A DNA stretch of 42,138 bases from Methylobacter sp. (lineage in GTDB: Bacteria > Pseudomonadota > Gammaproteobacteria > Methylococcales > Methylomonadaceae), in contig JAPLRU010000088.1 in assembly GCA_026399025.1 (NCBI GenBank), forward strand, positions 1-42,138. The letters run 5' to 3'. This document shows, one piece after another, positions 7,768 through 42,138 of the stretch. A program made the position numbers and the translations under genes. Below the pieces are notes generated by a model. The model was not told the origin of the DNA. It was given only the letters and a program-made list of their open reading frames with translations, and ran no database searches. Within the stretch, counting starts at the first letter, position 1, and each line of letters begins with the position of its first letter.

Positions 7768-7789
7768 TTTAATCTCCTCTAAATCATTA

Positions 7790-26574: not shown

Positions 26575-26898
26575 GGTAACTCGCAACAATAAATCCCCAC
26601 AGCTATCGTTCCCACGCCGGAGCGCTCGTCTTTATACACAAATGTGTTTCAGTCGTCATACCGGCATGGATGCCGGTATCCAATGCCATGGACGGTAACT
26701 TGACGGCTTTACCGGAGCTGGATCGAAGTTCAGTGCCAATCGATAGATTCACATCCCTGTGACTGGATTCGCTACGCGCTCTAACGGGTCCGGCATCCAT
26801 GCCGAAATGACGGTGTATCTTTGGCGCTTGTGTATAACGATGAGCGCCGGAGCATGGGAACTATTCGGGTCAGTGGGCTTATTTATTGCGAGTTACCC
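26575..26898. repeat. Large inverted-repeat element (about 320 bp)
   Basis: The two ends are about 70-bp imperfect inverted repeats: left GGTAACTCGCAACAATAAAT, right the inverse of GGTAACTCGCAATAAATAAG. Both arms also share a GTTCCCA...CGGCGCTC...TTATACACAA part. Within lies a second inverted pair, CCGGCATGGATGCCGG against CCGGCATCCATGCCG. It starts at the stop of the secreted protein gene and runs into the last codons of the response regulator. No gene is seen inside. Confidence 0.65.
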
Positions 26899-27833
26899 AA
26901 GGCGGTTCGTTGCAAGACCGCTGAAACCGCTGCCGCGCGAGTGACGACGCCCAGTTTTTCGAAAATATGTTCGAGATGCTTGTTGACCGTGCGCGGGCTG
27001 CTGCCCAGAATGGTGCCCACTTCTTTATTGGTCTTACCTCTGGATATCCACATCAGTATTTCCGCTTCGCGAAAAGTAAGGCCTAGCGTGTTTCTTACCG
27101 TATCAAGGTCCCAAGCTCCCGAATGTTTTTCCAACACCAGAAGATATTCATTGCTATTTTGGCAAGGTGTTATTTTGGCGGCGAAACCGACACCGGCCCG
27201 GTAACTTTCAAAAGACGCATTATCGAATTTTTCAGCGTCCAGGCATTTTCTAAGCCATTCAAGTATCGGTTTGGGTAGCCGAGAACCCAGCTCAATACTA
27301 TCGGTTAACGTGTGCGTTTGTATAAACTCGTTTAACCAACCGCTACCGCCGGGTGTTAACCAAGTGACGACACCGGATGAATCGATTGCCAAGGCGGAGA
27401 ACGGACTAGTGCTTAGAGCCTGTTCGGCGCGGCGCAAATTGCGGGACTGAGTCAGCTGTACATCCACTCTGGCGAGTACTTCAGGTGGACGTATCGGTTT
27501 CACCAGGTAATCAACGGCGCCTTCTTCGAAACCGCGCAACAGGTCGTCCAGTTCGCTTAACGCGGTCATAAATAAAACCGGAATGTCGGCCGTTTCAAGA
27601 TTGGATTTAAGCCGCTTACAGGTTTCAAAGCCGTTGATGCCGGGCATCATAACGTCCAGCAAAATAATATCCGGCTTCAGGTAAATGATTTGCGCCAAGG
27701 CCGATAAGCCGTCGGTGGCGACGAGCACACGGTAACCGGCTTCCGACAGCGTATCGGATAACAGGGCAAGATTGCCGGGCGTGTCGTCGACAATCATGAC
27801 GATGCCGTTAGTGGAAGAAGGTTTACTTGTCAT
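26883..27833 (-). CDS. Response regulator, receiver + PAS-like + LuxR-type HTH
   Basis: The 316-residue protein has a receiver domain (about 10-130) with the acidic pocket VDD at 15-17 and phospho-acceptor Asp60 in ILLDVMMPGING. The middle (about 145-240) looks like a PAS-type sensor region (FSALAIDSSGVVTWL), and the C-terminus (about 250-315) is a LuxR-family helix-turn-helix (LTFREAEILMWISRGKTNKEV, then SPRTVNKHLEHIFEKLGV). It would bind DNA as a dimer when phosphorylated. The ATG at 27833 overlaps the end of the kinase gene by 11 bp, so it is the obvious partner. The last residues (LGNSQ) are encoded by the repeat at 26575-26898. Confidence 0.9.
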   Translation of the reverse strand: MTSKPSSTNGIVMIVDDTPGNLALLSDTLSEAGYRVLVATDGLSALAQIIYLKPDIILLDVMMPGINGFETCKRLKSNLETADIPVLFMTALSELDDLLRGFEEGAVDYLVKPIRPPEVLARVDVQLTQSRNLRRAEQALSTSPFSALAIDSSGVVTWLTPGGSGWLNEFIQTHTLTDSIELGSRLPKPILEWLRKCLDAEKFDNASFESYRAGVGFAAKITPCQNSNEYLLVLEKHSGAWDLDTVRNTLGLTFREAEILMWISRGKTNKEVGTILGSSPRTVNKHLEHIFEKLGVVTRAAAVSAVLQRTALGNSQ

Positions 27834-30800
27834 TGCCGCTGTATTCCTCGTTTGCAACAGGTAAAAGTTTTTTGATCTCAACAAGACGAAACTCGCCGGC
27901 CAGCGTCATCATATGTTGGGCGAAACGGGTATATTCGGGGTGAAGCTGAATGAGTTCGCTCAAGTAGTGATTAAGCCCCCGTAAATCGCCGATGCGGACA
28001 TAGCCGGTTAATTCCCGAAGCACTTCCGGCGAAGGTTTTTGATCGGTGTTTTGCACCTCAATTTCATCGTGCTGCTCCTGGTGCAGCCAGTCCAAGGCCA
28101 AATGCAATTTAAGTTTGTACAGCAGATTGTTAACTTGTATCGGTTTGATCAGAAAATCGTTGCAACCTGCATTAATCGCGTTGAGTCGATCGGAAGGATA
28201 GGCATTAGCGCTTAATACAATAATGGGCGATGAATAAGCTTTTTGACGCAGTTGACGGGCCGTTTCGGCGCCGTCAACTCCGGGCATGGATAAATCCAAT
28301 AAAATAAGGTCCGGCGGGTTTGCGGCAACTTGATTCAGGCACTCTTCTCCGCAACCGGCCTCAATCAAGTTAAAGCCCAAGGGCTCCAACAGCGACACAA
28401 TTAACTGCCGATGTTCCGGTTGATCATCGACCACCATGATTTTTCGTGATTTTCCCCGATAAGCGATAATGTCTTCTTCTTGGATATATTGCTGTTCGCC
28501 GCCCAGATTGGGCAGCAACAGCCGCACGGTAAAAGTTGAGCCTTGGTTCGGATTGCTGACCACGACCAGTTCGCCGCCCATAATTTCGCAAAGGATTTTA
28601 CTGATGGTTAAGCCCAAACCGCTGCCCGAGTCGAAATTTTCGTTCGGTAATTGGGTAAAAGGCTGGAAAATATTTTGCAGTTGATCTTGATGGATGCCGG
28701 GGCCGGTATCGACGACCTGAAAAGTCGTTACGCCGCAGCTGTAGCCGATGCGAAAAATAACCTCGCCATGCGCGGTGAATTTGATCGCATTACCGAGTAA
28801 GTTCAACAAAATTTGACCGACGCGCTTTTCATCGCCGCGCACCCGTTGAGGCAGGGTGGTGGCAATTTGGCAGTAAAAACCCAAGCCTTTAGCTTCGGCT
28901 TGCGGTTTAAAAACGCTGGTTAAATGGTCAATAAACTCAGGAAAGTCAATGGGTTCTTGGCGTAATTCAAATTTACGCGCTTCGATGCGGGCAATATCCA
29001 GAATATCTTCGATCAGCGCGGATAAATGTTCGCCGTTACGTTTTAAAATATCCACTGCCTGCCGTCTGTGCGCCGGTATCGCCGGATCTTTTTGCAGAAG
29101 ATAGGCGTAGCCGATGATGCTGTTTAACGGGGTGCGTATTTCGTGGCTCATGCTGCTCAGAAAACGGCTTTTCGCGCTGTTGGCCCGGTCCGCCATTTGG
29201 GTGGCTTGCTGTAACTTGGCGTCGGTCTTTTTATGTTCGTCGATTTCCATCAACAAACGTTGGGTTTGTTTGGCGGTTTCTTCATGCGCAACCCGGCGGC
29301 TTTCGTCATTCAATACCAGCCACCAGGTGCATAAACCGATGAAGACCAGCAGCGAAGCATAAACTTTAACAAAATTGGCCAGCAGCAGATTAAAAGACGG
29401 CAAATAGTTTTCGACGGTCAACAAATCCTGATAGTAAATAATCCCGACAAATACGCTGGTCAACACAGTTAAAAATAAAAACAACAGGCTAAAGCGTATC
29501 AAGCGCAGCCTGACGCTCAAATTCAGCCACTTCGGCAAGCAGCATTCGGCAAAGCTGTGCAGATAATCATCCAAACGCAAACCCGGCTTACAAGCATCCA
29601 TGCAGCTTGAGTCCAAGGTACAGCAAAGCGAGCAAATGCCGCCTTCATAAACAGGGCAAAAAGCCATGTCCTCGCGCTCGAAATGATTCTCGCAAATGCT
29701 GCACCGGCTGAGTTGAGCCTGATTATTAAAACCAAGGTCACGCGCCAGATAACGTTGACTGCCATAGAGCAAGGCAATGCAGGGAACTAACAAAAAGGCC
29801 AAGCTCAACGCAATAAACGCTGAAAACGCTTGGGCGAAATCGCCGAATAAACCCAAATAAGCCAATATCGAAACTACCGAGGCGCATAAGGTAGACAATA
29901 TGCCGACCGGATTCAGATCGGGCAGGTAAGCGCGCTTGAATTCAACCGCTTGAGTGCTTAAGCCCAAAGGTTTGTTGATCAGTAATTCGGCGGCAACCGC
30001 GCTAATCCAGGCAATCGACATATTGGAAAACAAGCCCAGCACTTTTTCCAAAGCGCCGAATAAACCGAATTCCATCAGCAACAGCGCGATGGAAACATTA
30101 AACACCAGCCACACCACGCGTCCCGGATGACTGTGGGTCAGCCGCGAAAAAAAATTCGACCAGGCCAATGAACCGGCATAAGCGTTGGTGACATTGATTT
30201 TTAGCTGGGACACCACGACAAATAAAGTAGTGACCGCTAACGCTAATTCGGTATTGTCGAATAAGTCGCCGTAAGCCACTAAATACATTTGCGTCGGTTC
30301 ATGCGCATGGATCGGGTCTATGCCGTGACGAATGGCAAGATGAGCCAGTAACGCGCCGCCCAGTTGCCGAATCATGCCGAACAGAATCCAGCCGGGGCCT
30401 GCGGTCAGTGTCGCCAGCCACCAGCGTAACCGGTTTTTTTCGGTGAGCTCCGGCATAAAGCGCAAAAAATCCACTTGCTCGCCGATTTGCGCCACCATTG
30501 AAAAAGCGATGGTGGTCGCGCTGCCGAATAACAGCCAGTTAAAGCCTTGGCCGCTGCCTGCAATCCAAAAATAGGTTTGCAACGTCAGCAGCGAATCGGG
30601 TTCGCGTATAAACACTGCAACATAAGGCGTGATCAATAAAACCAGCCATAACGGCTGTGTCCACATTTGCAAGCGGCTGATCGTGGTAATCCCGAAAGTC
30701 ACCAGCGGAATGACCGTAACAGCGCTGATAACATGCGCTATCGCAATCGGAATATGAAAATACAGCTCGATAGCCAAGGACATAATAGAGGCTTCGAGCG

Positions 30801-31203
30801 CGAATAAAGTAAAGGTAAACGACGCGTAAATCAGCGAAGTGACGGTTGAGCCGATATAGCCGAAGCCCGCGCTGCGGGTCATCAGGTCGATATCGATGTT
30901 ATAGCGGGCGGCATAATAACTGATGGGAAAACTGATAATAAAGATGATCAAGCCCACGGTCAGAATGGCCCAAAAAGCATTGGTAAAACCGTAATTGACC
31001 GATAGAAATCCTCCTATCGCTTCCAGCACCAGAAACGAGGTAGAGCCGAACGCGGTATTGGCGACCTGAAATTCGGACCATTTGCGGAAGCTTCGGGGAG
31101 CAAACCTAAGCGCGTAATCTTCCAGCGTTTCGTTGCCGACCCAGGCGTTATAGTCGCGGCGGATTTTTGAGATATTTTGTGAGATACCGGCGTCCTCGGC
31201 AGT
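27823..31203 (-). CDS. NCS1-permease-like hybrid sensor histidine kinase (5' end interrupted)
   Basis: A permease-type membrane domain (about 12 helices, NCS1 nucleobase/allantoin transporter-like) is fused to a kinase. Using the first in-frame GTG (31029) as residue 1: membrane part to about 420; a Cys-rich motif at about 428-470 (RCSICENHFE, CSLCCTLDSSC, DACKP) that may bind zinc or Fe-S; two more helices (about 500-570); a coiled coil; a HisKA domain with candidate His near 628 (MSHEIRTPLN); HATPase with DTGPGI and GSGLGL; and a receiver with Asp near 912 (ILLDLSMPG). Coding sequence clearly extends upstream of the GTG for 58 codons (RRDYNAWVGNETLEDYALRF, W-S-E-F-Q), but then meets TAA at 31204-31206. 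No standard start lies between, so the 5' end is broken or uses an unusual start. Confidence 0.85.
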   Translation of the reverse strand, partial: TAEDAGISQNISKIRRDYNAWVGNETLEDYALRFAPRSFRKWSEFQVANTAFGSTSFLVLEAIGGFLSVNYGFTNAFWAILTVGLIIFIISFPISYYAARYNIDIDLMTRSAGFGYIGSTVTSLIYASFTFTLFALEASIMSLAIELYFHIPIAIAHVISAVTVIPLVTFGITTISRLQMWTQPLWLVLLITPYVAVFIREPDSLLTLQTYFWIAGSGQGFNWLLFGSATTIAFSMVAQIGEQVDFLRFMPELTEKNRLRWWLATLTAGPGWILFGMIRQLGGALLAHLAIRHGIDPIHAHEPTQMYLVAYGDLFDNTELALAVTTLFVVVSQLKINVTNAYAGSLAWSNFFSRLTHSHPGRVVWLVFNVSIALLLMEFGLFGALEKVLGLFSNMSIAWISAVAAELLINKPLGLSTQAVEFKRAYLPDLNPVGILSTLCASVVSILAYLGLFGDFAQAFSAFIALSLAFLLVPCIALLYGSQRYLARDLGFNNQAQLSRCSICENHFEREDMAFCPVYEGGICSLCCTLDSSCMDACKPGLRLDDYLHSFAECCLPKWLNLSVRLRLIRFSLLFLFLTVLTSVFVGIIYYQDLLTVENYLPSFNLLLANFVKVYASLLVFIGLCTWWLVLNDESRRVAHEETAKQTQRLLMEIDEHKKTDAKLQQATQMADRANSAKSRFLSSMSHEIRTPLNSIIGYAYLLQKDPAIPAHRRQAVDILKRNGEHLSALIEDILDIARIEARKFELRQEPIDFPEFIDHLTSVFKPQAEAKGLGFYCQIATTLPQRVRGDEKRVGQILLNLLGNAIKFTAHGEVIFRIGYSCGVTTFQVVDTGPGIHQDQLQNIFQPFTQLPNENFDSGSGLGLTISKILCEIMGGELVVVSNPNQGSTFTVRLLLPNLGGEQQYIQEEDIIAYRGKSRKIMVVDDQPEHRQLIVSLLEPLGFNLIEAGCGEECLNQVAANPPDLILLDLSMPGVDGAETARQLRQKAYSSPIIVLSANAYPSDRLNAINAGCNDFLIKPIQVNNLLYKLKLHLALDWLHQEQHDEIEVQNTDQKPSPEVLRELTGYVRIGDLRGLNHYLSELIQLHPEYTRFAQHMMTLAGEFRLVEIKKLLPVANEEYSGNDK

Positions 31204-31206
31204 TTA

Positions 31207-31439
31207 TACAAGGCCTGTCCACGGCCCGAATGGTGAGTGACGGCGCAATCGAACATCAGTCATCGATAGCAATAACCGCACCAAAGACCGTTCTCAATGA
31301 TAATGCATCGGCAAGGGCAAGGGCTTGAAAACAGAGGTCTATATTGGTGCGCTTGGTTTTGATCTTGCACAGCAATGGCTGTTTTTTGAGAGACTTCGAG
31401 AAGCTCTTAAATTCTGTTATAACTTCGGCCGTTAAAAAT
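31207..31439. other. Spacer between ureG and the sensor kinase gene
   Basis: The only notable feature is an ATG at 31261-31263 in the kinase frame, which would start MTDVRLRRHSPFGPWTGLV and then meets the TAA at 31204-31206. I see no terminator hairpin, so ureG and the kinase could share a transcript. Confidence 0.45.
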
Positions 31440-32051
31440 CTAGCCCAGCATTCCGGCTTGAATAATAAACGCCTCAACCGCTTTAAGACCTTCTTGGGTT
31501 TTCAAATTGGTAAACACAAACGGCCGCTCGCCGCGCATCTTGCGCGCATCGCGGTCCATAACTTCCAGCGACGCACCGACATAAGGCGCCAGATCGATCT
31601 TGTTGATAACCAGCAAGTCCGAACGGGTAATTCCGGGGCCGCCTTTGCGCGGTATCTTGTCGCCTGCCGACACATCGATCACGTAAATCGTCAGATCGGC
31701 CAGTTCAGGGCTGAAGGTCGCACTAAGATTATCGCCGCCGCTTTCGACCATGATAAAGTCGAGATTTTCAAACTTCATGCTTAATTCATCGACCGCCGCC
31801 AGATTCATCGACGCATCTTCCCGAATCGCGGTATGCGGGCAACCGCCGGTTTCGACGCCCAAGATGCGTTCTTCCGGCAGCGCTTGGCTGCGAATCAAAA
31901 ACTGTTGGTCTTCCTTGGTGTAAATGTCATTGGTCACCACGCCGATCTCGAATTTGTCGCGCATTTGCTTGCACAGCGCGTCGACCAACGCGGTTTTACC
32001 GGAACCGACCGGGCCGCCGATGCCTACTCTTAATATTTGCTTAGTGTTCAT
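31440..32051 (-). CDS. ureG: Urease accessory GTPase UreG
   Basis: The 203-residue GTPase (SIMIBI class) couples GTP hydrolysis to delivery of Ni2+ to apo-urease. The P-loop GPVGSGKT is at 13-20, the nickel-binding Cys-Pro-His is at 71-73 ([11 protein letters not shown]), and [10 protein letters not shown] gives the guanine specificity. The ATG at 32051 is preferred with GAGAGAG just upstream; an in-frame TTG at 32063 is the alternative. It is the last urease gene, 8 bp after the ureF stop. Confidence 0.97.
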
Positions 32052-32059
32052 ATACTCTC

Positions 32060-32734
32060 TCAAGAACGAAATAATCTGGAATACTGCATTTCATGGCGAC
32101 TACTGGCCAAGGCTAGGCCGAACGCGCTGCCGCCGATGTCGTCATCGGCAATAGTGAATGCCTCGTTGACTAAAGCCGGAATTTTAGCGGCCAAATCGGT
32201 TAATAATCGCTGTCCCGCGACTTGTCCTAGCGGCACCAGCTTGACCGCGCATAACACCTGGTTTTCCAACCAGCTCCACAAATAACCGATTGCTGTTTCG
32301 CGCTTGGGTACGCCCCAGTTCACAGCTGCAAAAGCGAAGATTGTCGTCAACGTGGTTTCGGGCTTGCGTATCCAGGGTTGCATACCGGCTATGTCCAATG
32401 AATCCAGCAGGCGCGCCAGCGCTTGGCCGGTATGCCGATCTTCGGCCCTTAACTCGGAAGTTTCCCGACAGGCAATCAAGGTTTTGCTCCAGTATTCGAC
32501 GTTTTCAATATCGCCGCATTCCCAGGCGTCGTATAGCCGTACCAGAATCGGCAAATCGATGCGCGTCAAACAAACTGCCATCAAGCCGTCAAGCCATTCA
32601 TCGGTATCGCTTGCATTGCTTATCCAGTCGTCGTCAACCGCCCGCTCCAAGCCTTGCGAATAACAGTACATGCCTATCGGCAGGCCGGGACTGACCAGTT
32701 GCAGCAAACGCAATAAGGCCAGATCAGTGACCAT
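32060..32734 (-). CDS. ureF: Urease accessory protein UreF
   Basis: The 224-residue all-helical protein forms the UreD-UreF-UreG activation complex and gates GTP hydrolysis by UreG. The start [21 protein letters not shown] matches the UreF N-terminus, and the later [23 protein letters not shown] and [22 protein letters not shown] segments fit too. The ATG at 32734 lies inside the ureE 3' end (11-bp overlap), which shows coupling. Length is typical. Confidence 0.95.
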
Positions 32735-33155
32735 GACCGTGATACGCGCCTTGCTCCGGTTCAAACGGCAACACTTCATGCGTGACCGTCAAACCCAACC
32801 CTTCCAGCATATGATCCAGCACATGATCGGTCAGGAAGCGAAGCTCGCCGGGCAGAATCTGCAACGCAACATGGCGATTGCCCAAGTGATAACAGGCCTT
32901 GGCGAATTGCAGTGCGTCGTCGGTGCGCACCACCGATAGCGACTCCGGCGCTGCATCGACCAGCACCCGGTAATGGTCGGGGCCGGTCAGCACCGAGCCT
33001 TTGCGCAACACCTGTCCGCGCGGCAAAAAAAGCCCGATTTTGGTGCCGCTGTCTGTTTTAAGCAGCAGGCGGCTTTTCTGGCGCGATTCATACGGCAGCG
33101 TGACCACGTCGTCCGTAGCGGTCTCCAACGGAGCCAATTCAGTCAGTTTCAGCAT
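32724..33155 (-). CDS. ureE: Urease accessory protein UreE (nickel chaperone)
   Basis: The 143-residue nickel-binding chaperone delivers Ni2+ to UreG. The N-terminal peptide-binding domain (about 1-70) and C-terminal metal-binding domain are both present: CYHLGNRHV with His90 and His95, and DHVLDHMLEGLG with His111 and His115. The tail HGHGH is short compared with the His-rich tails of Klebsiella-type UreE. The ATG at 33155 lies 2 bp after the ureC stop. Confidence 0.95.
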   Translation of the reverse strand: MLKLTELAPLETATDDVVTLPYESRQKSRLLLKTDSGTKIGLFLPRGQVLRKGSVLTGPDHYRVLVDAAPESLSVVRTDDALQFAKACYHLGNRHVALQILPGELRFLTDHVLDHMLEGLGLTVTHEVLPFEPEQGAYHGHGH

Positions 33156-33157
33156 AA

Positions 33158-34861
33158 TCAAAACAAAAAATAACGTTGGGCAAAAGGCAGCACATCGGCC
33201 GGCTCGCAAGTCAGCAGCAGGCCGTCGGCGCGGACCGAATAGGTTTGCGGATCGACTTCGATATGCGGTTGGTAGTGGTTATGGATCAAGTCTTTTTTGC
33301 CGATGGTGCGGGTGTTCGCCACTACGCCGATTCTCTTGTTAAGTCCCAAAGTAGTCGGCACATCGGACTCGACGGCAACTTTAGGCAAAAAGAACATCGA
33401 AGTCGCCGAAGCGGTTCTCCCGAACGCACCGAACATCGGCCGGTAATGCACCGGCTGCGGCGTAGGAATCGAGGCATTCGGGTCGCCCATCGGCGCGGCG
33501 GCAATAAAGCCGCCTTTAAGAATCAGGCTTGGCTTGACCGCGAAAAAAGCCGGGTTCCACAACACCAAATCGGCCAGCTTGCCGACTTCGACCGATCCGA
33601 CTTCATGTGCGATGCCATGGCTGATGGCCGGATTAATCGTGTACTTGGCGATATAACGCTTGATGCGGAAATTGTCGTTGTGCGGTGAATCTTCCGCCAG
33701 ACTACCCCGCTGCGTTTTCATTTTATGCGCGGTCTGCCAAGTGCGGATAATCACTTCGCCAACCCGGCCCATCGCCTGCGAATCCGAAGAAATCATCGAA
33801 AACGCACCCAAGTCATGAAGAATATCCTCGGCCGCGATGGTTTCGCGGCGAATCCGCGATTCGGCAAAAGCCACGTCTTCGGCAATGCCCGGATCAAGAT
33901 GATGGCATACCATCAGCATGTCCAGATGTTCGTCCACGGTATTGATCGTATAAGGCCGGGTCGGATTGGTTGACGACGGCAGCACGTTAGCCTCGCCGCA
34001 AGCCCTGATAATATCCGGCGCATGGCCGCCGCCCGCGCCTTCGGTATGGTAAGTGTGAATGGTGCGGCCCTTGAATGCGGCAAAGGTGTCTTCGACAAAA
34101 CCGGATTCGTTCAAGGTATCGGTATGAATCGCGACTTGCACATCGAAGCGGTCGGCCACCGAAAGACAGCAATCGATAGCCGCCGGTGTCGTGCCCCAGT
34201 CTTCATGCAGCTTCAAGCCCATCGCCCCGGCGCGAACCTGTTCCTCCAACGCAATCGGCAGACTCGCATTGCCTTTGCCGAGCAATCCGAAATTCATCGG
34301 AAATCCGTCCAGCGATTGCAGCATAGTATGAATATTCCACGGCCCCGGCGTACAGGTCGTCGCATTGGTGCCGGTTGCAGGGCCGGTGCCGCCGCCGATC
34401 ATCGTGGTCACGCCGGACATCAACGCTTCATCGATTTGCTGCGGGCAGATGAAATGGATATGCGCGTCAATGCCGCCTGCGGTCAGGATTTGTCCTTCAC
34501 CGGCGATAATTTCGGTGCCGGGGCCGATGATTATATCGACGCCCTGTTGCGTATCGGGATTTCCGGCCTTGCCGATGCCCGCAATGCGGCCGTTCTTGAT
34601 GCCGACATCGGCTTTGATAATGCCCCAGTGGTCGACGATCAATGCATTGGTAATCACCAAATCCATCGCCACCGTGCAATCCACCTGGCTTTGGCCCATG
34701 CCGTCGCGAATGACTTTGCCGCCGCCGAATTTGACCTCGTCGCCGTACACCGTGCGGTCGGCTTCGACTTCTAAAAACAAGCCGCTGTCGCCCAAACGCA
34801 CCCGGTCGCCGGTGGTCGGCCCGAACATATCGGCATAAGCTTGCCTGCTGATCCTGCTCAT
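33158..34861 (-). CDS. ureC: Urease alpha subunit (catalytic)
   Basis: The 567-residue catalytic subunit hydrolyses urea to ammonia and carbamate. All active-site residues of the enterobacterial enzyme are present at the same numbers: His134 and His136 (HIHF), the carbamylated Lys217 (GLKLHEDWG), His219, His246, His272, His320 and Asp360. So it should be an active, nickel-dependent enzyme. GGAGG lies 7 bases before the ATG. The start overlaps the ureB stop by 4 bp (ATGA). Confidence 0.98.
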
Positions 34862-35175
34862 AAATTGTCCTCCAATGCGCCCATCACATCCTGGCGAAAA
34901 CCGTAAATTCGGCGCAGTCCGGCAAAGGCCACCAACTGTATTTCACGTTGCTGGCCGGGTTCGAATCGCACCGCGGTACCGGCTGGAATATCCGGCCTGA
35001 ATCCGCGCGTCGTGGCACGATCAAACTGCAAAGCCGGATTGGTTTCGAAAAAATGATAATGCGAGCCGACTTGAATCGGCCGGTCGCCGCTGTTCGCAAC
35101 CACCACGTTTATCGTCGCGCGGCCTGCGTTCAGTTCGATGTCGCCATCGGCGGGGATGATTTCTCCGGGTATCAT
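34858..35175 (-). CDS. ureB: Urease beta subunit
   Basis: The 105-residue structural subunit matches UreB throughout: [19 protein letters not shown] at the start, then [14 protein letters not shown], and RFEPGQ near the end. The ATG at 35175 has AGGAG 5 bases upstream. It is separated from ureA by an 87-bp spacer occupied by a strong hairpin repeat, and it overlaps ureC by 4 bp. Confidence 0.97.
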
Positions 35176-35201
35176 GACTACTCCTAATGCATATATGTAG
35201 C

Positions 35202-35258
35202 GTAGGGCGTGCCGTGCGCGCCATTTTTCTGCTTATTGGCGCGCACGGCACGCCCTAC
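35202..35258. repeat. Strong 21-bp-arm hairpin between ureA and ureB
   Basis: GTAGGGCGTGCC... (35202-35222) pairs perfectly with the 21 bases at 35238-35258 (ending GGCACGCCCTAC), leaving a 15-base A/T-rich loop. In the transcript it starts 4 bases after the ureA stop and ends 26 bases before the ureB start. It resembles a REP element. It could change ureA:ureB ratios through mRNA processing or partial termination. Confidence 0.75.
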
Positions 35259-35262
35259 TTTG

Positions 35263-35565
35263 TTACTCGATCGGGTTATGGACCGTGACCAGCTTGGTGC
35301 CATCCGGAAATGTCGCTTCAACCTGCACATCCGGCAGCATTTCCGCGACGCCGTCCATCACATCGTCGCGATATAGTAAGGTGCGACCGAATTCCATCAA
35401 TTCGGCAACGGTGCGGCCGTCGCGCGCGCCTTCCATGATCGCCGCGCTGATAAAAGCCACGGCTTCCGGGTAATTAAGCTTCAGGCCTCTGGCTTTGCGG
35501 CGTTCGGCCAGCAAGCCTGCGGTAAATATCAGCAGTTTGTCTTTTTCGCGTGGTGTTAATTGCAT
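35263..35565 (-). CDS. ureA: Urease gamma subunit
   Basis: The 100-residue structural subunit matches Ure[21 protein letters not shown] at the start, [21 protein letters not shown] in the middle and [16 protein letters not shown] further on, ending TVHNPIE. The ATG at 35565 is the family start; the frame opens further upstream at 35655, but that sequence lies in repeat DNA. GGACT is the only ribosome-site candidate, so translation may be modest. It is 480 bp downstream of ureD, unusually far. Confidence 0.97.
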
Positions 35566-35613
35566 TGTTTTAGTCCAATTTTTATTCAGATGTTTTCCTG
35601 CATCGGATTTATT

Positions 35614-35640
35614 CACCACGAAGACACGAAGAACACGAAG
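35614..35640. repeat. CACGAAGACACGAAG repeat
   Basis: CACCACGAAGACACGAAGAA then CACGAAG; same family as 35705-35731. Confidence 0.6.
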
Positions 35641-35660
35641 TTTGCTTGTTCCCAAGCTTC

Positions 35661-35834
35661 AGAGACTGTGAAAGTATTCGTTTTAGAACAAAAGCAAAAG
35701 CACTCACCACGAAGACACGAAGGACACGAAGTTTTCAATACACTGAATTAAATAATTATTTTTCCTTCGTGCTCTTCGTGCCTTCGTGGTGAAGAGTTTT
35801 TTAAACCGATTTTGATAATACTTTCACAGTCTCT
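35661..35834. repeat. Nested long inverted repeat, 18-bp perfect arms
   Basis: AGAGACTGTGAAAGTATT (35661-35678) is repeated as its exact reverse complement at 35817-35834. Inside are a CACCACGAAGACACGAAGG repeat (35705-35731) and its inverted counterpart (35764-35792), so the whole 174 bases fold as nested hairpins. Confidence 0.75.
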
Positions 35835-35865
35835 TCAGCGCTCGTCGTTATACATATATCTCGAC

Positions 35866-35976
35866 GTAGGTCGGAATAAGCCGGTTCGAGCGATAGCGAA
35901 AACCGGCGTTTCCGGCGCTCCGGTTGCCGGAAATGCTCCACCCTTGCTGGCGCCGGGCGGACTTATTCCGGCCTAC
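35866..35976. repeat. GTAGG-type palindrome, copy 1
   Basis: Starts GTAGGTCGGAATAAGCCGG and ends ACTTATTCCGGCCTAC. It is a sequence relative of the repeat at 37297-37416, with an inner CCGGCGTTTCCGG hairpin. Confidence 0.7.
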
Positions 35977-36010
35977 ATTCTTGGAAACCATCATAAGTTA
36001 TTAAATTTTT

Positions 36011-36039
36011 CTTCGTGTCCTTCGTGTCTTCGTGGTGAG
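36011..36039. repeat. CACGAAG-type repeat, inverted orientation
   Basis: CTTCGTGTCCTTCGTGTC then TTCGTGGTGAG, just past the ureD 3' end; faces the copies at 35614 and 35705. Confidence 0.6.
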
Positions 36040-36045
36040 TAAAAT

Positions 36046-36903
36046 TCAAGTCGCCCAAATTCGCGGCGCACAAGCTTTGCGTTGAACCGAGTCCGGCCGC
36101 ACAATCGCCCAAACCTGCTCGAAAAAACCGCGCAGCCGGTCGCTTCTGTCATCAACAGCTCTACAGACCAACAGTTCATCAATAAGCGTCACGCCGCGGC
36201 CTTTGCTCTCGCCGATTAATTGCTGGACTGCGGCCAGACTTTCAGCTCCGGCAGGGCTGGCAAACAAGGTTCCGCAAGCCGACAAGCCCTGCAATCCCCA
36301 ACGGGCCGCAAAAGCTTTGGCATCCAGATGCAGGCGTTCCAAAAATAAAGGCTGATTTTCGCAATAAACCCGCCAGCTCATATCTGCCAAACCGTTATCG
36401 AAACTCTCTCCGCAGGCCGGCCGCCCCAAAGACAGAATTTCCCAGCCGATAAAACGTGCGCCTGCCGCCAATTCAACATTAACCGTCGATTTTAACTGCG
36501 CGCCCTGATAAATAATGGTTTCCTGCGGCAGCCATTCCAACGCCGCACCTTCCTTCACTTTGATCGATACGGTTTGGACGGCCAATTCGCCACCGCTACG
36601 ATAAAACTTTCCTGCCGCCGGTGTGGTAATCAGCGCATGGCTGTGTGGTTCGGCGCTGATACAAAGGTTTAAACGGTCGCCACCGACAATCCCGCCCGGC
36701 GGGTGCAGGATATACACATGGCACACGTCGCCTTCCGGGTAAAAAGGTCGCTGTACCGTTAAAGGGCCTTGATGACGACGGTGCGCCAGTAGCGTTTTGC
36801 CGTGTTTTTGTTCAAAGCCGAGCTCCAGTTTTGCTTGCCAGCCTTGGTTTTGCGCGACATTACAGTCAGCAATTTCAGCGTAAGGCAGGGCATCAGATTT
36901 CAA
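36046..36903 (-). CDS. ureD: Urease accessory protein UreD
   Basis: The 285-residue accessory protein (UreH family) scaffolds apo-urease for nickel insertion and binds UreF and UreG. Family motifs: GWQAKLELGFEQKHGKTLL at about 21-39, RPFYPEG, HPPGGIVGGDRL at about 68-79, and LITTPAAGKFYRS at about 90-102, with EWLPQETIIYQGA near 122-134. The ATG at 36903 has no strong ribosome site. It is the first gene of the urease unit, with a 63-bp spacer after the DUF2442 gene. Confidence 0.95.
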   Translation of the reverse strand: MKSDALPYAEIADCNVAQNQGWQAKLELGFEQKHGKTLLAHRRHQGPLTVQRPFYPEGDVCHVYILHPPGGIVGGDRLNLCISAEPHSHALITTPAAGKFYRSGGELAVQTVSIKVKEGAALEWLPQETIIYQGAQLKSTVNVELAAGARFIGWEILSLGRPACGESFDNGLADMSWRVYCENQPLFLERLHLDAKAFAARWGLQGLSACGTLFASPAGAESLAAVQQLIGESKGRGVTLIDELLVCRAVDDRSDRLRGFFEQVWAIVRPDSVQRKACAPRIWAT

Positions 36904-36966: not shown

Positions 36967-37227
36967 TTACGCTGTAGGTTGTGAAACTAACGGAAAAGTC
37001 TCCGGGTGACGAATTGAATCGACATGCAAATCAATATCCAATTCCGGCCAATAAAGATGCTGCGGTTGGGGACGATCAACATGGAAAAGTTCCGCTACCG
37101 GCGCTTTACGAAACCACGGAAACTCCAAAAATGAAACGAATAGTTCCTCCTTTTCATTAAGCAGTATCCAGAAACCGTGTTTGGTAACGCCGGATACCTC
37201 AACCGGGGAAATGTCTGTGCCAAGCAT
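36967..37227 (-). CDS. DUF2442-domain protein
   Basis: This 86-residue protein has the DUF2442 pattern: TDISPVEVSGVTKHGFWILL near the start, LFVSFLEFPWFRKAPVAEL in the middle, then LYWPELDIDLHVDSIRHPE. The function of the family is unknown; relatives are often next to DUF4160 proteins in toxin-antitoxin-like pairs, but no such partner is present here. I chose the ATG at 37227 because GGAG lies 9 bases upstream. It sits between the urea transporter and urease genes on the same strand. Confidence 0.85.
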   Translation of the reverse strand: MLGTDISPVEVSGVTKHGFWILLNEKEELFVSFLEFPWFRKAPVAELFHVDRPQPQHLYWPELDIDLHVDSIRHPETFPLVSQPTA

Positions 37228-37296
37228 CTTTAATCTCCTGTTCGTGTAAATTTTCTCGTTCCCACGCGCCGCGCTCATTATTATACACATCTCAAT

Positions 37297-37480: not shown

Positions 37481-38263
37481 TCAAACCGTCAAATACCGCT
37501 TAACCATCTCATCGCTCAATTCATCCATCGCCCCGGCAGCTACGCCCCGGCCTCTGTCCATTATATAAAACCGGTCCGCGACCTTCCGTGCAAACGGCAG
37601 TTTTTGTTCGACCAGCAACACGGTCACGCCCAATTCGTTTTTGATCTTGATAATCCCTTCGCGTACTTCATCTTTCGCTTCGTCGCCTTGCTTAAGCAAG
37701 GGCGTGGTTATGCCTTTGGCGCGGTTCAGGCGGATAATCACATCGCCGATTTCGCTAACGATATTCGGCTGTATGCCTTCGGTCGGCTCATCCAGGATCA
37801 GCAATTTGGGGTTCAGCACCAAGGCCCGGCCGATAGCCAGTTGCTGTTGCTGGCCGCCGGACAAATCGCCGCCGCGCCGTTTCAGCATTTGTTTCAGTAC
37901 CGGGAACAGTTCATAAATATGTTCCGGGACTTTTTTAATGCCTTGTTTGCGCACCGCGCGCAGGCCGATTTTCAGGTTTTCCTCGACCGTCAGCAACGGA
38001 AAAATCTCCCGGCCCTGCGGCACAAAACCGATGCCCAGTTCGGCGCGGTGTTCCGGCTTGGCAAGGGTTAAGGCCTCGCCGTTATAGTCGATAGCGCCGT
38101 CGCGGACGGCGATCAGGCCCATGATGCATTTCAGCAAAGTAGTCTTGCCGACGCCGTTGCGGCCCATTAAACACAGGCACGAACCGGCCTTTATATCGAG
38201 ATTTACATCCCACAACGTATGGCTGCCGCCGTAATATTGATTCAATCCGCTAATTTTCAGCAT
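37481..38263 (-). CDS. urtE: Urea ABC transporter ATPase UrtE
   Basis: The 260-residue ATP-binding subunit has Walker A (GRNGVGKTTL near residues 34-43), the signature LSGGQQQQLAIGRAL, and Walker B (LLILDEPTEGIQPNIV). At residues about 190-220 it has about 29 extra residues (RAKGITTPLLKQGDEAKDEV...) before the VTVLLVEQKLPFARK segment that normally follows, making it longer than the usual 230. It is encoded last of the urtBCDE genes; its ATG overlaps the urtD stop by one base. It energises urea import with UrtD. Confidence 0.93.
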   Translation of the reverse strand: MLKISGLNQYYGGSHTLWDVNLDIKAGSCLCLMGRNGVGKTTLLKCIMGLIAVRDGAIDYNGEALTLAKPEHRAELGIGFVPQGREIFPLLTVEENLKIGLRAVRKQGIKKVPEHIYELFPVLKQMLKRRGGDLSGGQQQQLAIGRALVLNPKLLILDEPTEGIQPNIVSEIGDVIIRLNRAKGITTPLLKQGDEAKDEVREGIIKIKNELGVTVLLVEQKLPFARKVADRFYIMDRGRGVAAGAMDELSDEMVKRYLTV

Positions 38264-39042
38264 CAGTCCCCCAAATAAACCTGTATCACGCGTGGATCGT
38301 TTTGTACCTCGTCCATCGTGCCTTCCGTCAACACTGAGCCTTCATGCAGCACCGTCACATGTTTGGCAATCGAGCGGACGAATTCCATATCGTGCTCGAC
38401 CACAACAATCGAGCGCTCGCCCTGCAACGATAGCAGCAACTCAGCCGTGCGTTCGACTTCCTGATGGGTCATGCCCGCAATCGGTTCGTCGACCAGCATG
38501 ACTTTGGGCTCCTGCATCAGCAACATGCCGATCTCCAGCCATTGTTTCTGCCCGTGCGACAGGATGCCCGCCGGTTGCGACCTCAATTCAACCAGCCCTA
38601 TGGTTTCCAGCACTTGCTCGATACGGTCGCGTTGCGCGCCGGTCAATTTTGCAAATAAGGTCGCCCAGACGCCCTTATCGGTCGCCAAAGCCAGTTCCAG
38701 GTTTTCGAAAACGCTGAGCATTTCAAACACGCTGGGCTTTTGAAATTTGCGGCAAATGCCGGCTTTGGCAATGGCCGGTTCGTCCATTTGCAACAGGTCG
38801 ATGGTTTGCCCGAAAAACACCGAGCCGGTATCGGGACGGGTTTTGCCGGTAATCACATCCATCAATGTGGTTTTACCGGCGCCGTTCGGGCCGATCAAAC
38901 AACGCAATTCCCCTGCGTCGATATACAGCGACAAGTTATTTAAAGCTTTGAAGCCGTCGAAACTGACGCTGACATCTTCAAGATAAAGAATCGGGCCGTG
39001 ACTGACATCCAATTGGCCCGGTTTAAGCGCTAAGCCGTTCAT
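38263..39042 (-). CDS. urtD: Urea ABC transporter ATPase UrtD
   Basis: The 259-residue ATP-binding subunit has Walker A GPNGAGKTTLMD near 52-63, the LivG-type insert (GICRKFQKPSVFEML), a variant signature LSHGQKQWLEIGM, and Walker B VMLVDEPIAGM. The switch His is in VVVEHDMEFVRSIA. The variant LSHGQ signature is the usual form in UrtD. Start overlaps the urtC stop by 4 bp. Confidence 0.95.
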   Translation of the reverse strand: MNGLALKPGQLDVSHGPILYLEDVSVSFDGFKALNNLSLYIDAGELRCLIGPNGAGKTTLMDVITGKTRPDTGSVFFGQTIDLLQMDEPAIAKAGICRKFQKPSVFEMLSVFENLELALATDKGVWATLFAKLTGAQRDRIEQVLETIGLVELRSQPAGILSHGQKQWLEIGMLLMQEPKVMLVDEPIAGMTHQEVERTAELLLSLQGERSIVVVEHDMEFVRSIAKHVTVLHEGSVLTEGTMDEVQNDPRVIQVYLGD

Positions 39043-40121
39043 TGTTTTTGCTCCTGCAAACGACGTTGCCAGAATCCGAGTAAGCCGTCAGGCAACAACA
39101 CGGTCACCAGAATAAAAGTCGCGCCGAGGAAAAACAGCCAGATTTCCGGCGCCCATCCGGTCAGCAAGGTTTTAGTGTAATTGACCAGCACCGCGCCGAC
39201 GATGGCGCCGTACAATGTGCCGCGCCCGCCGATGGCGACCCAGATGACGATTTCCAGCGAGTTCAACGGCGAGAATTCGCTGGGATTGATAATGCCCACT
39301 TGCGGTACATACAAAGCGCCGGCAATCCCGGCCAGCATCGCGGCAAACACGAAAATCCATAATTTGAACAGCTCAACGCGATAGCCTAAAAAACGCACCC
39401 GCATTTCCTGGTCGCGAATCGCGGTCACCACTCGGCCCAGCTTACTGTTGACGATCCAACGGCTGAGTAAAAAAGCCAAGATCAGGATCAAGCCGGAAGC
39501 CATCAATAAACAGGCGCGCACCGCATCGGATTGAATATTAAAGCCCAGGATTTCCTTGAAATCGGTTAAGCCGTTGTTACCGCCGAAGCCCATTTCATTC
39601 CTGAAAAAAGCCAATAACAGCGCGTAAGTCAGCGCCTGGGTGATAATCGACAGATAAACGCCGGTCACCCGCGAGCGGAACGCCAGCCAGCCGAATAAAA
39701 AAGCCAGCGCACCGGGAACCAGTACAATCATCAGCGCGGCAAACCAGAACTGGTCGAAACCGTGCCAGTACCAGGGCAGGGCTTTCCAATCGAGAAACAC
39801 CATAAAATCGGGCAGCAGCGGATCGCCGTAAACGCCGCGATTACCGATTTGGCGCATTAAATACATGCCCATTGCGTAGCCGCCGAGCGCAAAGAAAGCG
39901 CCGTGACCCAAGGCCAGAATGCCGCAATAACCCCAAACCAGATCCAGCGACATGCCGAGCAACGCGAAAGTGATATATTTGCCCAGCAGCGACACGGTAT
40001 AAGCCGAGAAATACAGCGGCGAGCCCGGTGAAAATATCAAATTGCACAGCGGAATAATCAGGCTGATTGCAGCCAGAACAGCCAGTACCGAGAGCGCGGC
40101 TTTATCGTTTTTAAACAGCAT
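39039..40121 (-). CDS. urtC: Urea ABC transporter permease UrtC
   Basis: The 360-residue permease of the LivM type has about ten hydrophobic helices. The conserved permease motifs are visible: DLVWGYCGILALGHGAFFALGGYAMGMYL (about 58-86, one of the longest matches) and FVFAAMLAGIAGALYVPQVG, with the IVIWVAIGGRGTLYGAIVGA loop. It forms the membrane channel with UrtB. GGAGG lies about 9 bases before the ATG, and there are 3 bases between the urtB stop and this start. Confidence 0.95.
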   Translation of the reverse strand: MLFKNDKAALSVLAVLAAISLIIPLCNLIFSPGSPLYFSAYTVSLLGKYITFALLGMSLDLVWGYCGILALGHGAFFALGGYAMGMYLMRQIGNRGVYGDPLLPDFMVFLDWKALPWYWHGFDQFWFAALMIVLVPGALAFLFGWLAFRSRVTGVYLSIITQALTYALLLAFFRNEMGFGGNNGLTDFKEILGFNIQSDAVRACLLMASGLILILAFLLSRWIVNSKLGRVVTAIRDQEMRVRFLGYRVELFKLWIFVFAAMLAGIAGALYVPQVGIINPSEFSPLNSLEIVIWVAIGGRGTLYGAIVGAVLVNYTKTLLTGWAPEIWLFFLGATFILVTVLLPDGLLGFWQRRLQEQKQ

Positions 40122-40124
40122 CGC

Positions 40125-41771
40125 TTAGCCCTCCACCGCGCGGCCCTGTTGCGGAAACAATCCGCGCGGCCGTTTTTGAATGAATAAAATGATGAACACC
40201 AACACCAGTATTTTCGCCAATACTGCGCCGGCGTAGGGTTCGAGCAATTTATTGGCAATACCCAGCGAAAATCCCGCCACCAACGTGCCCCACAAATTGC
40301 CGACGCCGCCGAACACCACGACCATAAACGAATCGACAATATAAGCTTGTCCCAGATTCGGGCCGACATTGGTAATCTGGCTTAACGCGACCCCGGCAAC
40401 TCCGGCTATACCGGAGCCCAGCCCGAAGGTCAACGCATCGACCCGGCCGGTCGGAATGCCCATCGCTAAGGCCATCTTGCGGTTCTGCGCTACGGCGCGA
40501 ACTTCCAAGCCTAAGCGGGTGCGCTTGAGGATTTGCAGCAACAATACGAATACCAGCAAGCAGAAAACCAGTATGTACAAACGGTTCCAGGTCAGCGATA
40601 AAAAGTCATTGATTTGCAAGGCGCCGCTCATCCATTCCGGCGTCGCGACGCTGCGGTTTAACGGCGAAAAAATCGAGCGCACGGTTTGTTGCAAAAACAG
40701 GCTGACGCCGAAAGTCGCCAACAGCGTTTCCAGCGGGCGGCCGTATAAAAAGCGGATAATGCCGCGCTCAATCACAATCCCGGTCAATGCCGAAATAATA
40801 AACGCGGCCGGTACCGCAATTGCCAGCGACAGTCCCAAATGGTTAGGCATCAGCTGCTGCGTCACGTAAGTGGTATAAGCGCCGAGCATCATCAGCTCGC
40901 CATGGGCCATGTTGATCACGCCCATCACGCCGAAGGTAATGGCAAGTCCGATCGCGGACAAGACCAGCACCGCGCCGAGACTTAAACCGAAAAACAGCGT
41001 TTCGATAGCGGCATAGGCTTGCAACTTGGAATTGATTTTTGTCAGCGCGGCTTCAGCCTGATTGCGCACATCGCTGTCCGCTTCCAGATAATGACCTTCG
41101 CCGTCTTTTTCGACCAGTACATTTAAGCGGTTAACCACATTTCGTCCGGGCTGTTCTTTTAATAACTCTATCGCGGCCAGACGCACGCCTTTGTCGGAGC
41201 TGTTTAATTGTTCCAGACCCAAAATAAGCTTGATCGCGTTTTGTACCTTGTCATCCTGTTCCATCGGCAAATGGCCGCGCAACAGCGCCAAACTCTGGTC
41301 ATCAATGGCTTTGCCCATCGCGCCGACGGCTGCAAGCCTTACCTCCGGATCGTCGTCATTCAATTGCAAGCGGCCGATTATTTTCCGCAGCGACGTTCGT
41401 AAGCTGTTATTTACGGTGATTTTTTGCGTCGCGGAGCGTTCCACTATGCCGAGGCTTTCCGCGCTGTTGGCGTCGGTCAGTTGGTAGCCGGTTTCGATTT
41501 CTTCGCCGATCACCAGTTTTTCATCGGCTTTAAGCGTCAATAAGCGCCCGTCGAGCAGGGCTTGCAATATCGCAACAGCTCGCGGGTTCGGCACCGAGGC
41601 CAGTTGTTCGATAGCCTGTCCGCGCTCTTGCATGGACCCGGCTTTAAGATTGGACAAAGCGGCCGAGAACGCATCCCCGGCGGCAATTTCCTGACCGATA
41701 CTCAAGGTTGGCGACATCAGGATAAACCCGAGGATTACCCGGCAACACCAGCTGAAAGAATTCGGTTTCAT
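40125..41771 (-). CDS. urtB: Urea ABC transporter permease UrtB
   Basis: The 548-residue permease has a signal peptide (about 1-26), a periplasmic N-terminal domain of about 220 residues with HEAT-like helical repeats (for example DPEVRLAAVGAMGKA), and a C-terminal LivH-type membrane domain from about 255. The permease domain has the family pattern AIGLAITFGVMGVINMAHGE and VFGGVGNLWGTLVAGFSLG. The long N-terminal domain is typical of UrtB. I chose the ATG at 41771, with GGAG 6 bases upstream; an in-frame ATG at 41810 is less likely. It is first of the visible urt genes; urtA would have to lie beyond the right edge. Confidence 0.95.
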   Translation of the reverse strand: MKPNSFSWCCRVILGFILMSPTLSIGQEIAAGDAFSAALSNLKAGSMQERGQAIEQLASVPNPRAVAILQALLDGRLLTLKADEKLVIGEEIETGYQLTDANSAESLGIVERSATQKITVNNSLRTSLRKIIGRLQLNDDDPEVRLAAVGAMGKAIDDQSLALLRGHLPMEQDDKVQNAIKLILGLEQLNSSDKGVRLAAIELLKEQPGRNVVNRLNVLVEKDGEGHYLEADSDVRNQAEAALTKINSKLQAYAAIETLFFGLSLGAVLVLSAIGLAITFGVMGVINMAHGELMMLGAYTTYVTQQLMPNHLGLSLAIAVPAAFIISALTGIVIERGIIRFLYGRPLETLLATFGVSLFLQQTVRSIFSPLNRSVATPEWMSGALQINDFLSLTWNRLYILVFCLLVFVLLLQILKRTRLGLEVRAVAQNRKMALAMGIPTGRVDALTFGLGSGIAGVAGVALSQITNVGPNLGQAYIVDSFMVVVFGGVGNLWGTLVAGFSLGIANKLLEPYAGAVLAKILVLVFIILFIQKRPRGLFPQQGRAVEG

Positions 41772-41936
41772 AACATCTCCATAAATTAATAAATGGAACA
41801 CGGATAGCACTGATTGGACGGATTTAAGCGGATCTTTAAAACGGCATCGTTAAGTTTTGAAAGAAAGGTGTTGACCGGAGCACTTTATATCGTTCCCACG
41901 TTCCGGCGTCACTGCCATTAAGTTAAGAAAAAAGCT

Positions 41937-42016
41937 CCCTCTCCTGCTGGACGACTTGCATGGATGCAGGAGGTAGGGCAATGCAGGAGCAATTGCCGAG
42001 AGGGTTGGGGTGAGGA
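41937..42016. repeat. CCCTCTC palindrome with 48-bp module inside
   Basis: CCCTCTCCTGCTGG, then a 48-bp module at 41951-41998 (ACGACTTGCATGG ... GAGCAATTGCCG), then AGAGGG and TTGGGGTGAGG. It equals the empty form at 25598-25632 plus the module. Inside the module AGGAGG is followed 7 bases later by ATG. Confidence 0.72.
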
Positions 42017-42048
42017 GAATAAAAATAAGGAAAAAAGCCTTATTTGAT

Positions 42049-42138
42049 CCCCTCATCCTAACCTAATCATGCTGGACTATCCTGTCCAGCACCCTACGGG
42101 CGAGTGCAAATCCGCTCCCGGCGGATTTGTCCCGGAGG
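42049..42138. repeat. Repeat tail with CCTGTCCAGCACCC hairpin, continues past the edge
   Basis: Matches the repeat at 24707-24806 nearly base for base (CCCCTCATCC, a GCTGGACTATCCTGTCCAGC hairpin, then the CCGCTCCCGGCGG hairpin) until the window ends. Confidence 0.65.

Follow-up and report, generated by a model that had tools for sequence, protein, structure and literature searches.

A candidate urea receptor kinase with an NCS1-derived membrane part, encoded beside the urea genes of a Methylobacter species

What does a sensor kinase with a permease-like membrane part detect when its gene adjoins the genes for urea uptake and hydrolysis, and which genes does it control? This question is raised by a stretch of 42,138 nucleotides from Methylobacter sp. 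(contig JAPLRU010000088.1 of assembly GCA_026399025.1; hereafter the window), in which genes for a hybrid sensor kinase and a LuxR-type response regulator lie downstream of ureG. To our knowledge, the recognition of outside urea by bacteria and the switching of urt and ure genes have been little explained beyond general nitrogen control. We propose, with a probability of roughly 0.6, that the two genes encode a two-component system for urea use, in which a converted NCS1 receptor kinase would signal through the regulator to dyads upstream of urt/ure or fmd/ami genes. At the level of sequence, this proposal draws support from the domains of the two proteins, their pairing, the gene neighbourhood, the co-occurrence with urease, conserved dyads, covariation between the recognition helix and its site, sigma54-type elements, and an altered permease pocket.

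In the proposed mechanism, nitrogen shortage would act through sigma54, probably with NtrC, so that the kinase and the regulator are made. The NCS1-derived part, presumably no longer a sodium-coupled nucleobase symporter, would serve as a receptor that binds urea, or short amides in sister branches. Ligand binding would alter the kinase, and phosphate would pass to the regulator either directly or via the kinase's own receiver. The phosphorylated regulator would bind ahead of the porin-like-urtABCDE-ure or fmd/ami genes, at one or two dyads resembling TACGTCA-nn-TGACGTA, and thereby turn on uptake and hydrolysis. We infer the identity of the ligand, the direction of the response, the role as receptor rather than transporter, and the control by NtrC.

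The pair is made up as follows.

26883..27833, minus strand: NarL/FixJ (LuxR-type) response regulator, 316 residues from ATG 27833
27823..31185, minus strand: hybrid sensor kinase, 1,120 residues if the start is ATC 31185-31183, a start assigned by inference (open frame from 31203)
28111..28440, minus strand: receiver of the kinase (Response_reg; Pfam, residues 922-1031)
28513..28836, minus strand: HATPase_c (Pfam, residues 790-897)
28978..29175, minus strand: HisKA, with H-box SMSHEIRTP (Pfam, residues 677-742)
29305..29526, minus strand: two further hydrophobic segments that separate the Cys block from the kinase core (about residues 560-633; hydropathy)
29590..29703, minus strand: eight-Cys block C501-x2-C504-x11-C516-x7-C524-x2-C527-C528-x5-C534-x3-C538 (alignment)
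29839..31128, minus strand: membrane part derived from an NCS1 permease (alignment to NCS1 over residues 26-455 of the open frame)

The first-pass annotation had read this order of membrane part, Cys-rich motif, HisKA/HATPase core and receiver from the letters alone, and Pfam, profile comparison and alignment agree with it. The regulator's open frame (26883-27884, minus strand) holds Response_reg and GerE domains (Pfam), which place it in the NarL/FixJ type. Given a regulator start at ATG 27833, the two genes share 11 bp, the overlap that had been noted earlier.

The kinase belongs to a large family. Its N-terminal region is matched in 134 of 237 genomes of the window's family, and the permease-Cys part occurs in 23 of 61 genomes. 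At least 592 relatives were confirmed in GTDB contigs, and the best 80 of these, which were retained, range from Methylobacter, Crenothrix and Methylomonas through Burkholderia and Pseudomonas to cyanobacteria. A relative of the membrane part is also present in 527 of 72,556 PLSDB plasmid records, 342 of which are from Klebsiella. Our comparison set comprises 107 distinct kinases (109 minus two duplicates), 88 of which match a strict H-box pattern. A regulator gene lies within 160 bp of the kinase gene in 92 of them, the linkage found in hybrid two-component systems. Of the 15 kinases that have no near regulator, six stop within 250 bp of where their contig or stretch ends. The remaining nine are cyanobacterial (three), from the orphan branch (four) or betaproteobacterial (two).

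Linkage to urea and short-amide genes and a predicted operator

The first-pass annotation had proposed looking for adjacency to urt and ure genes in other genomes. Urea or short-amide genes (urt/ure/fmd) adjoin 84 of the 107 kinases, and thus the pairs do not usually sit away from nitrogen genes. By label, 49 loci are urea, 24 amide (fmdA, fmdB, amiE/F), 11 urt only and 23 none. The urea label was given for ure genes or for a nearby porin-like gene, and some Methylococcales loci therefore carry it on the strength of the porin-like gene and urt. One locus (L114) is intermediate between the urea and amide kinds. Furthermore, the kinase tracks urease across the 237 related genomes: 117 have both kinase and UreC, three the kinase only, eight UreC only and 109 neither (Fisher p 2e-53, uncorrected for kinship). 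Kinases were counted here at E values below 1e-66, and a weak UreC match (32%, in G062) was dropped. UreC was found in none of the 14 genomes with distant matches only, which are orphan-type kinases or, in G083, bare permeases.

The genes around the pair in the window are these.

31440..36903, minus strand: ureG-F-E-C-B-A-D block, transcribed towards the kinase (Pfam UreA-G)
36967-37290, minus strand: DUF2442 gene between ureD and urtE (Pfam)
37481..41810, minus strand: urtE-D-C-B (Pfam families; urt names assigned from similarity among loci and with annotated plasmids)
Contig C59, likely right neighbour of the window: urtA, porin-like gene, predicted operator

The co-orientation with urtBCDE and ureDABCEFG described earlier is confirmed, with UreA-G assigned by Pfam. 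The kinase had also been placed directly downstream of ureG. The shared strand stands, but 236 bp separate ureG from the kinase open frame (254 bp from its proposed start), the gap holds a sigma54-like element, and the arrangement is a minority one. A kinase after ureG is also found in G029 and, with one extra gene between, in Methylotenera-type loci. Where urtA or the porin-like gene is in view (68 other kinases), the kinase is divergent from it in 50, on the same strand in 14 and convergent in four. In five annotated plasmids (L264, L265 and L267-L269), the kinase is divergent from urtABCDE-formamidase and is named only as an ATP-binding protein or hybrid kinase.

At 42014-42073, the window has a repeat of at least 60 bp that recurs at the two ends of the 4.2-kb urtA contig C59, in inverted orientation there. 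This contig is the likely right neighbour of the window because it begins with the repeat that is also at the window's right end, and the repeat probably broke the assembly there. The labels "porin-like" and "lipoprotein-like" derive from sequence appearance, and neither gene has a Pfam match even at E 10. In many Methylococcales loci, a porin-like and a small lipoprotein-like gene accompany the urt operon and the kinase (L039:6379-7611 and 7745-8554; L230). Elsewhere in the window, 20519-24403 (plus strand) encodes a 1,294-residue protein with a phosphonate-type periplasmic binding domain joined to PAS, GGDEF, EAL and zinc-binding CZB domains (Pfam). The genome belongs to a methanotroph, as it also has two matches to PF02461 (methane/ammonia monooxygenase A), and Methylobacter and Crenothrix are among its named close relatives.

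De novo motif searches were made on separate sets of upstream regions. Among the urtA upstream regions from 27 amide or urt-only loci, 24 have a site of the motif ATACGTCRATTGACGTAT, with a search score of 332 versus 54-60 in three shuffles. Upstream of the porin-like gene in Methylococcales loci, ATACGTCATTTGACTGAT has a site in 18 of 18 (score 252 versus 46-51 in shuffles). These searches converge on one dyad, TACGTCA-nn-TGAC, with the same half-site in urea and amide loci, and we consider this dyad upstream of the urt operons to be a newly found, predicted operator. A third set, of betaproteobacterial ureA upstream regions, yielded no operator, and the motif recovered there seems to reflect conservation at the beginning of the ureA frame. 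In Methylococcales upstream regions, the first dyad is present in all 20, and a second follows 16 bp on in 16.

A matrix made from the de novo sites was used to scan upstream regions, with a pass set at the 99% shuffle level and loci with two kinases counted twice. Passes were obtained for all 23 porin-like upstream regions of urea-labelled loci and for urtA upstream regions in amide (19 of 25), urt-only (8 of 11) and unlabelled (3 of 3) loci, counts with some circularity, since part of these sites went into the matrix. Other genes in these loci, internal ones included, passed in 5 of 360 cases. Among loci outside the matrix training, three betaproteobacterial porin-like upstream regions have a site.

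The genome of the window contains one exact copy of TACGTCANNTGACNNAT, at C59:3117-3133, just beyond the window; it lies upstream of the porin-like gene, between this and the small lipoprotein-like gene, with urtA behind the porin-like gene. When up to two mismatches are allowed, 28 and 29 matches are found on the two strands (exact copy included) versus 46 and 35 for the reversed control, and these inexact matches carry no weight because they are fewer than those of the control. A scan of the window itself gave one match with three mismatches, below the chance mean of 2.6. Across eight genomes searched, an exact match lies at the family kinase or its urt operon in seven (by position; gene order was examined in four), a copy with one mismatch is the only one there in G018, and a single exact match falls elsewhere.

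The regulators offer a further line of evidence. Of 74 regulators, 30 were usable with sites scoring at least 11/12; Methylococcales urea sites are outside this set because their right half differs. Both half-sites have C/G in six of the eight regulators whose recognition helix carries a Lys (P-A/M-T-V-K) versus one of 22 others (mostly P-R-T-V-N), which gives p 3e-4 with relatedness not removed. A changed recognition helix thus tends to go with a changed site. These results bear on whether the pair merely travels with urea genes without regulating them. Shared descent could indeed hold neighbours together, but the orientation varies and yet the association and the operator persist, and the helix covaries with the site, so we regard linkage without regulation as highly improbable. 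The earlier suggestion that the pair controls urt and ure is supported by the adjacency, by the co-occurrence with urease and by the conserved dyad upstream of urt operons.

The membrane part and its altered pocket

The permease part of the window kinase is invisible to Pfam, even when rescanned up to E 10. The kinase nonetheless matches a standalone permease of a related genome by BLASTP (E 4e-10, 24% over 362 residues), and this bridging permease is a PF02133 member at 2.2e-19. Comparison of the membrane part with a nine-member CodB/NCS1 profile using hhalign gave a probability of 99.5 and E 3.5e-23 over 394 columns, and two control permease families in the same test gave E 0.12 and 0.29. 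By these comparisons, the membrane part is NCS1-derived, in line with the first-pass annotation although a direct Pfam match is lacking. Pfam gave no match to an SSF (SLC5) domain in the kinase; it also gave none to a STAC domain, although the presence of a STAC model in Pfam was unchecked.

To compare pockets, the 107 kinases were aligned by sequence to CodB, with residues taken from PMC9379551. In CodB, Trp108 and Phe204 sandwich the base, and the hydroxyls of Thr278 and Thr279 form the Na2 site; the aromatics are described as conserved across NCS1 (PMC9379551). At the Trp108 position, the kinases have Phe (65) or Leu (42) and never Trp. At the Phe204 position they have Leu (73) or Met (34) and never an aromatic residue. 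Both positions are non-aromatic in 42 kinases, that of the window included. The hhalign result moves the residues of transmembrane segment 6 (TM6), which carries the second stacking position, by one, and still places no aromatic there. The Thr278 position is Lys in all 107, and the Thr279 position is Ile in 106 and Val in one. Glu stands at the Mhp1 Gln121 position in all but one kinase (106 of 107), and Gln239 is found in every one. Among eight NCS1 comparators, the first stacking position is Trp or Tyr in all eight, the second is aromatic in five, and each retains at least one Na2 hydroxyl.

Therefore, the altered pocket leans against a stacked base with sodium symport and towards a small polar ligand, since both the stacking aromatics and the Na2 hydroxyls are changed. 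The missing Trp and sodium-binding hydroxyls likewise favour a receptor of a small ligand. Gene context points to urea in particular, and urea and short amides are the likely ligands. Nucleobases and allantoin appear disfavoured because Trp108 has become Phe or Leu and the second stacking residue is never aromatic. The first-pass annotation had named urea or another nitrogen solute, such as allantoin or a nucleobase; the first half of that suggestion is favoured and the pocket leans against the second.

Two other readings of the membrane part must be weighed here. In the first, the permease part is a true transceptor that still transports its ligand and signals by flux. The NCS1 homology over 394 columns would fit, and CbrA has been described as such a transceptor, combining transporter and kinase (PMC13022988). 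We find this rather unlikely, given that Lys and Ile/Val replace the Na2 hydroxyls throughout, that a urt-type ABC importer already adjoins the kinase, and that Ks-Amt5 binds ammonium without translocating it (PMC5764959, PMC8534201). In the second, the kinase detects some other nitrogen solute (nucleobase, allantoin, hydantoin or ammonium) and urt/ure is only one target. NCS1 members are known to carry nucleobases and hydantoins (PMC9379551), 23 of 107 loci have no urea or amide genes in view, and Phe is found at a stacking position in 65 of 107. This is distinctly improbable in our judgement, because Trp is absent from the first stacking position and aromatics from the second in every kinase, exact operator copies are nearly confined to family kinases and the urt operons that go with them, and the kinase co-occurs with urease.

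The Cys-rich motif reported earlier after the membrane part is present, with eight Cys, and is kept in 107 of 107 relatives. Because these Cys are invariant across urea, amide and orphan branches alike, the block looks structural and may hold zinc, and the earlier idea that it forms an extra input finds no support. A search of solved structures with the kinase alignment returned only two weak zinc-binding matches (E 0.73 and 5.3), which are compatible with zinc binding by the block but are no proof of it.

On a tree built by a quick method with one support value, a Methylococcales clade (n=33; support 100) holds 23 urea, eight unlabelled and two amide loci, and a betaproteobacterial clade (n=37; support 99) holds 25 urea, five urt-only and seven unlabelled loci. 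The tree further has amide branches and one orphan branch that lacks urea genes. The orphan branch holds a second sensor copy from the window's genome (G000:C118:162373-165906, locus L057), about 51% identical; by eye, its sensor part is followed by PAS-like repeats and a kinase core, and it has neither an adjoining LuxR partner nor urea genes in view. Urea and amide labels switch only four times on the permease tree and fall largely in separate clades, as expected if the membrane part reads the substrate.

This pattern bears on a further alternative, in which the pair controls urt/ure via the dyad but responds to an internal cue, be it the state of nitrogen or energy or the Cys block, with the permease part as a membrane anchor or side transporter. 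The SLC5 part of CbrA is reported not to be essential for signal perception (PMC9100948), and the eight invariant Cys lie close to the membrane. The permease residues are nevertheless strongly conserved, and an alignment of 24 sequences shows many of them invariant. Urea and amide loci, in addition, largely separate on the permease tree. We therefore judge an internal signal unlikely and retain the receptor of urea as the preferred reading.

Nitrogen control and the start of the kinase gene

Two elements precede the kinase gene.

31193..31197, minus strand: Shine-Dalgarno-like GAGGA, 7 nucleotides before the ATC codon (sequence)
31268..31284, minus strand: -24/-12 element TTGGTGCGGTTATTGCT of sigma54 type, matching the consensus at 11 of 13 positions

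Scored against what we take to be the sigma54 -24/-12 consensus, elements with at least 10 of 13 positions precede the kinase gene in 38 of the 66 loci that are not in the Methylococcales set, versus 3.9% of shuffles. NtrC-like sites are found upstream of the kinase in 19 of these 66 loci versus 2.7%, and are not enriched inside the Methylococcales set (1 of 40 versus 0.9%). Upstream of urtA or the porin-like gene, the sigma54-type element is rare (1/23, 0/20, 1/43 and 1/5). Its presence at the kinase and rarity at these genes suggest two layers, in which nitrogen control would make the sensor and the sensor would control the urea genes. Generic sigma70 and terminator scans gave chance levels only.

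The kinase open frame (31203-27823, minus strand) contains no ATG, GTG or TTG before residue 59. This absence is shared by 10 of 65 distinct relatives and paralogues, in which no such codon lies between the in-frame stop and a conserved RRDYN. All 10 have ATC (eight) or ATT (two) at the same codon, eight before RRDYN, and six have a Shine-Dalgarno-like four-mer in the preceding 16 nucleotides. The set consists of the window kinase (31183-31197) and L039, L151, L154, L161, L173, L175, L201, L203 and L078; several other relatives have the same ATC/ATT arrangement but with a GTG, TTG or ATG codon upstream of it. The simplest reading seems to be a conserved AUC/AUU start, with a precedent in the GTC start of sigR, which is repressed by IF3 (PMC5472188). 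We rejected a broken kinase gene: the frame is intact, and the missing start codons are common to these 10 kinases with ATC or ATT at the same codon.

Counterevidence and relation to known systems

A number of observations weigh against the proposal. Several concern the operator: the matrix passes ureA upstream regions in only 2 of 23 cases and ureD in 0 of 9, urtA upstream regions of urea-labelled loci in 5 of 28 (the porin-like gene is often first there), fmdA in 6 of 26 (6 of 24 in amide loci), and porin-like upstream regions of amide-labelled loci in 0 of 2. A clear site is present in three of six held-out plasmid loci, one of the three being a near relative of the training set, and inexact matches genome-wide are no commoner than those of the reversed control in most genomes. 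As for the neighbourhood, 12 of the 23 loci that have no urea or amide gene in view extend at least 5 kb on both sides, and the counts are uncorrected for kinship. In the pocket, the Phe kept at the Trp108 position in 65 kinases is itself aromatic, the second aromatic is also absent in three of eight NCS1 comparators, two of the eight likewise have Lys at the first Na2 position, and the alignment-based comparison is not decisive on ligand or transport. The sigma54-type element is weak in the Methylococcales set (5 of 40 versus 2.2% of shuffles), and the Pfam scan found no HPt domain. The report on the transporter part of CbrA (PMC9100948) counts on the same side.

Fusions of SLC5 or Amt transporters to kinases are already known; what appears to be new, relative to the literature compared, is the NCS1 membrane part in such a fusion. 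The SLC5/STAC kinases CbrA, CrbS and RpuS also join a transporter-like membrane part to a kinase and control the use of a related solute, and CrbS and RpuS are hybrid kinases with adjoining LuxR-family regulators in Sinorhizobium (PMC9100948, PMC13022988). The window kinase differs in being NCS1 rather than SLC5, in its link to urea and amides, and in having the eight-Cys block and two hydrophobic segments where those kinases have STAC and PAS. Ks-Amt5 is likewise an uptake transporter turned nitrogen sensor and joined to a histidine kinase (PMC5764959); it belongs to the Amt family and senses ammonium, whereas the window kinase has an NCS1 part, an adjoining regulator and a predicted operator. 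The transporters CodB and Mhp1 share the homologous membrane domain; unlike them, the window protein lacks the stacking Trp and the Na2 hydroxyls and has an added kinase. Csal869 of Chromohalobacter, the suggested partner of EupR, is a predicted symporter-like hybrid kinase matched to a NarL/FixJ regulator, but has a sodium/solute symporter part and PAS domains and relates to ectoine uptake (PMC2964678).

The neighbourhood of the amide branch corresponds to the formamidase-urtABCDE clusters of pseudomonads and plasmids (PMC13209695, PMC13296017). The urtABCDE-formamidase cluster appears in PMC13209695, and a urtABCDE operon accompanied by LuxR-family two-component genes in PMC13296017; neither kinase nor regulator is tested for a role in the available parts of both papers. 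Our literature search on such systems returned no description of an NCS1-type kinase that controls urt/ure or fmd.

A candidate sensor, partner, operator and promoter element can now be named for urt and ure. The sensor family spans at least 592 loci in addition to the plasmid records, and its carriers include methanotrophs and methylotrophs. Among the literature compared, NCS1 would be the third transporter family, beside SLC5 and Amt, to be found in kinase fusions. Tentatively, and at somewhat less than even odds, the family may represent a widespread class of urea and short-amide receptors that arose from a converted NCS1 symporter, with the stacking Trp lost, an invariant Lys and a hydrophobic residue at the sodium site, a zinc-ribbon-like link to the kinase, a conserved dyad operator and nitrogen control, and with an AUC/AUU start that would keep the sensor scarce in one methanotroph branch.

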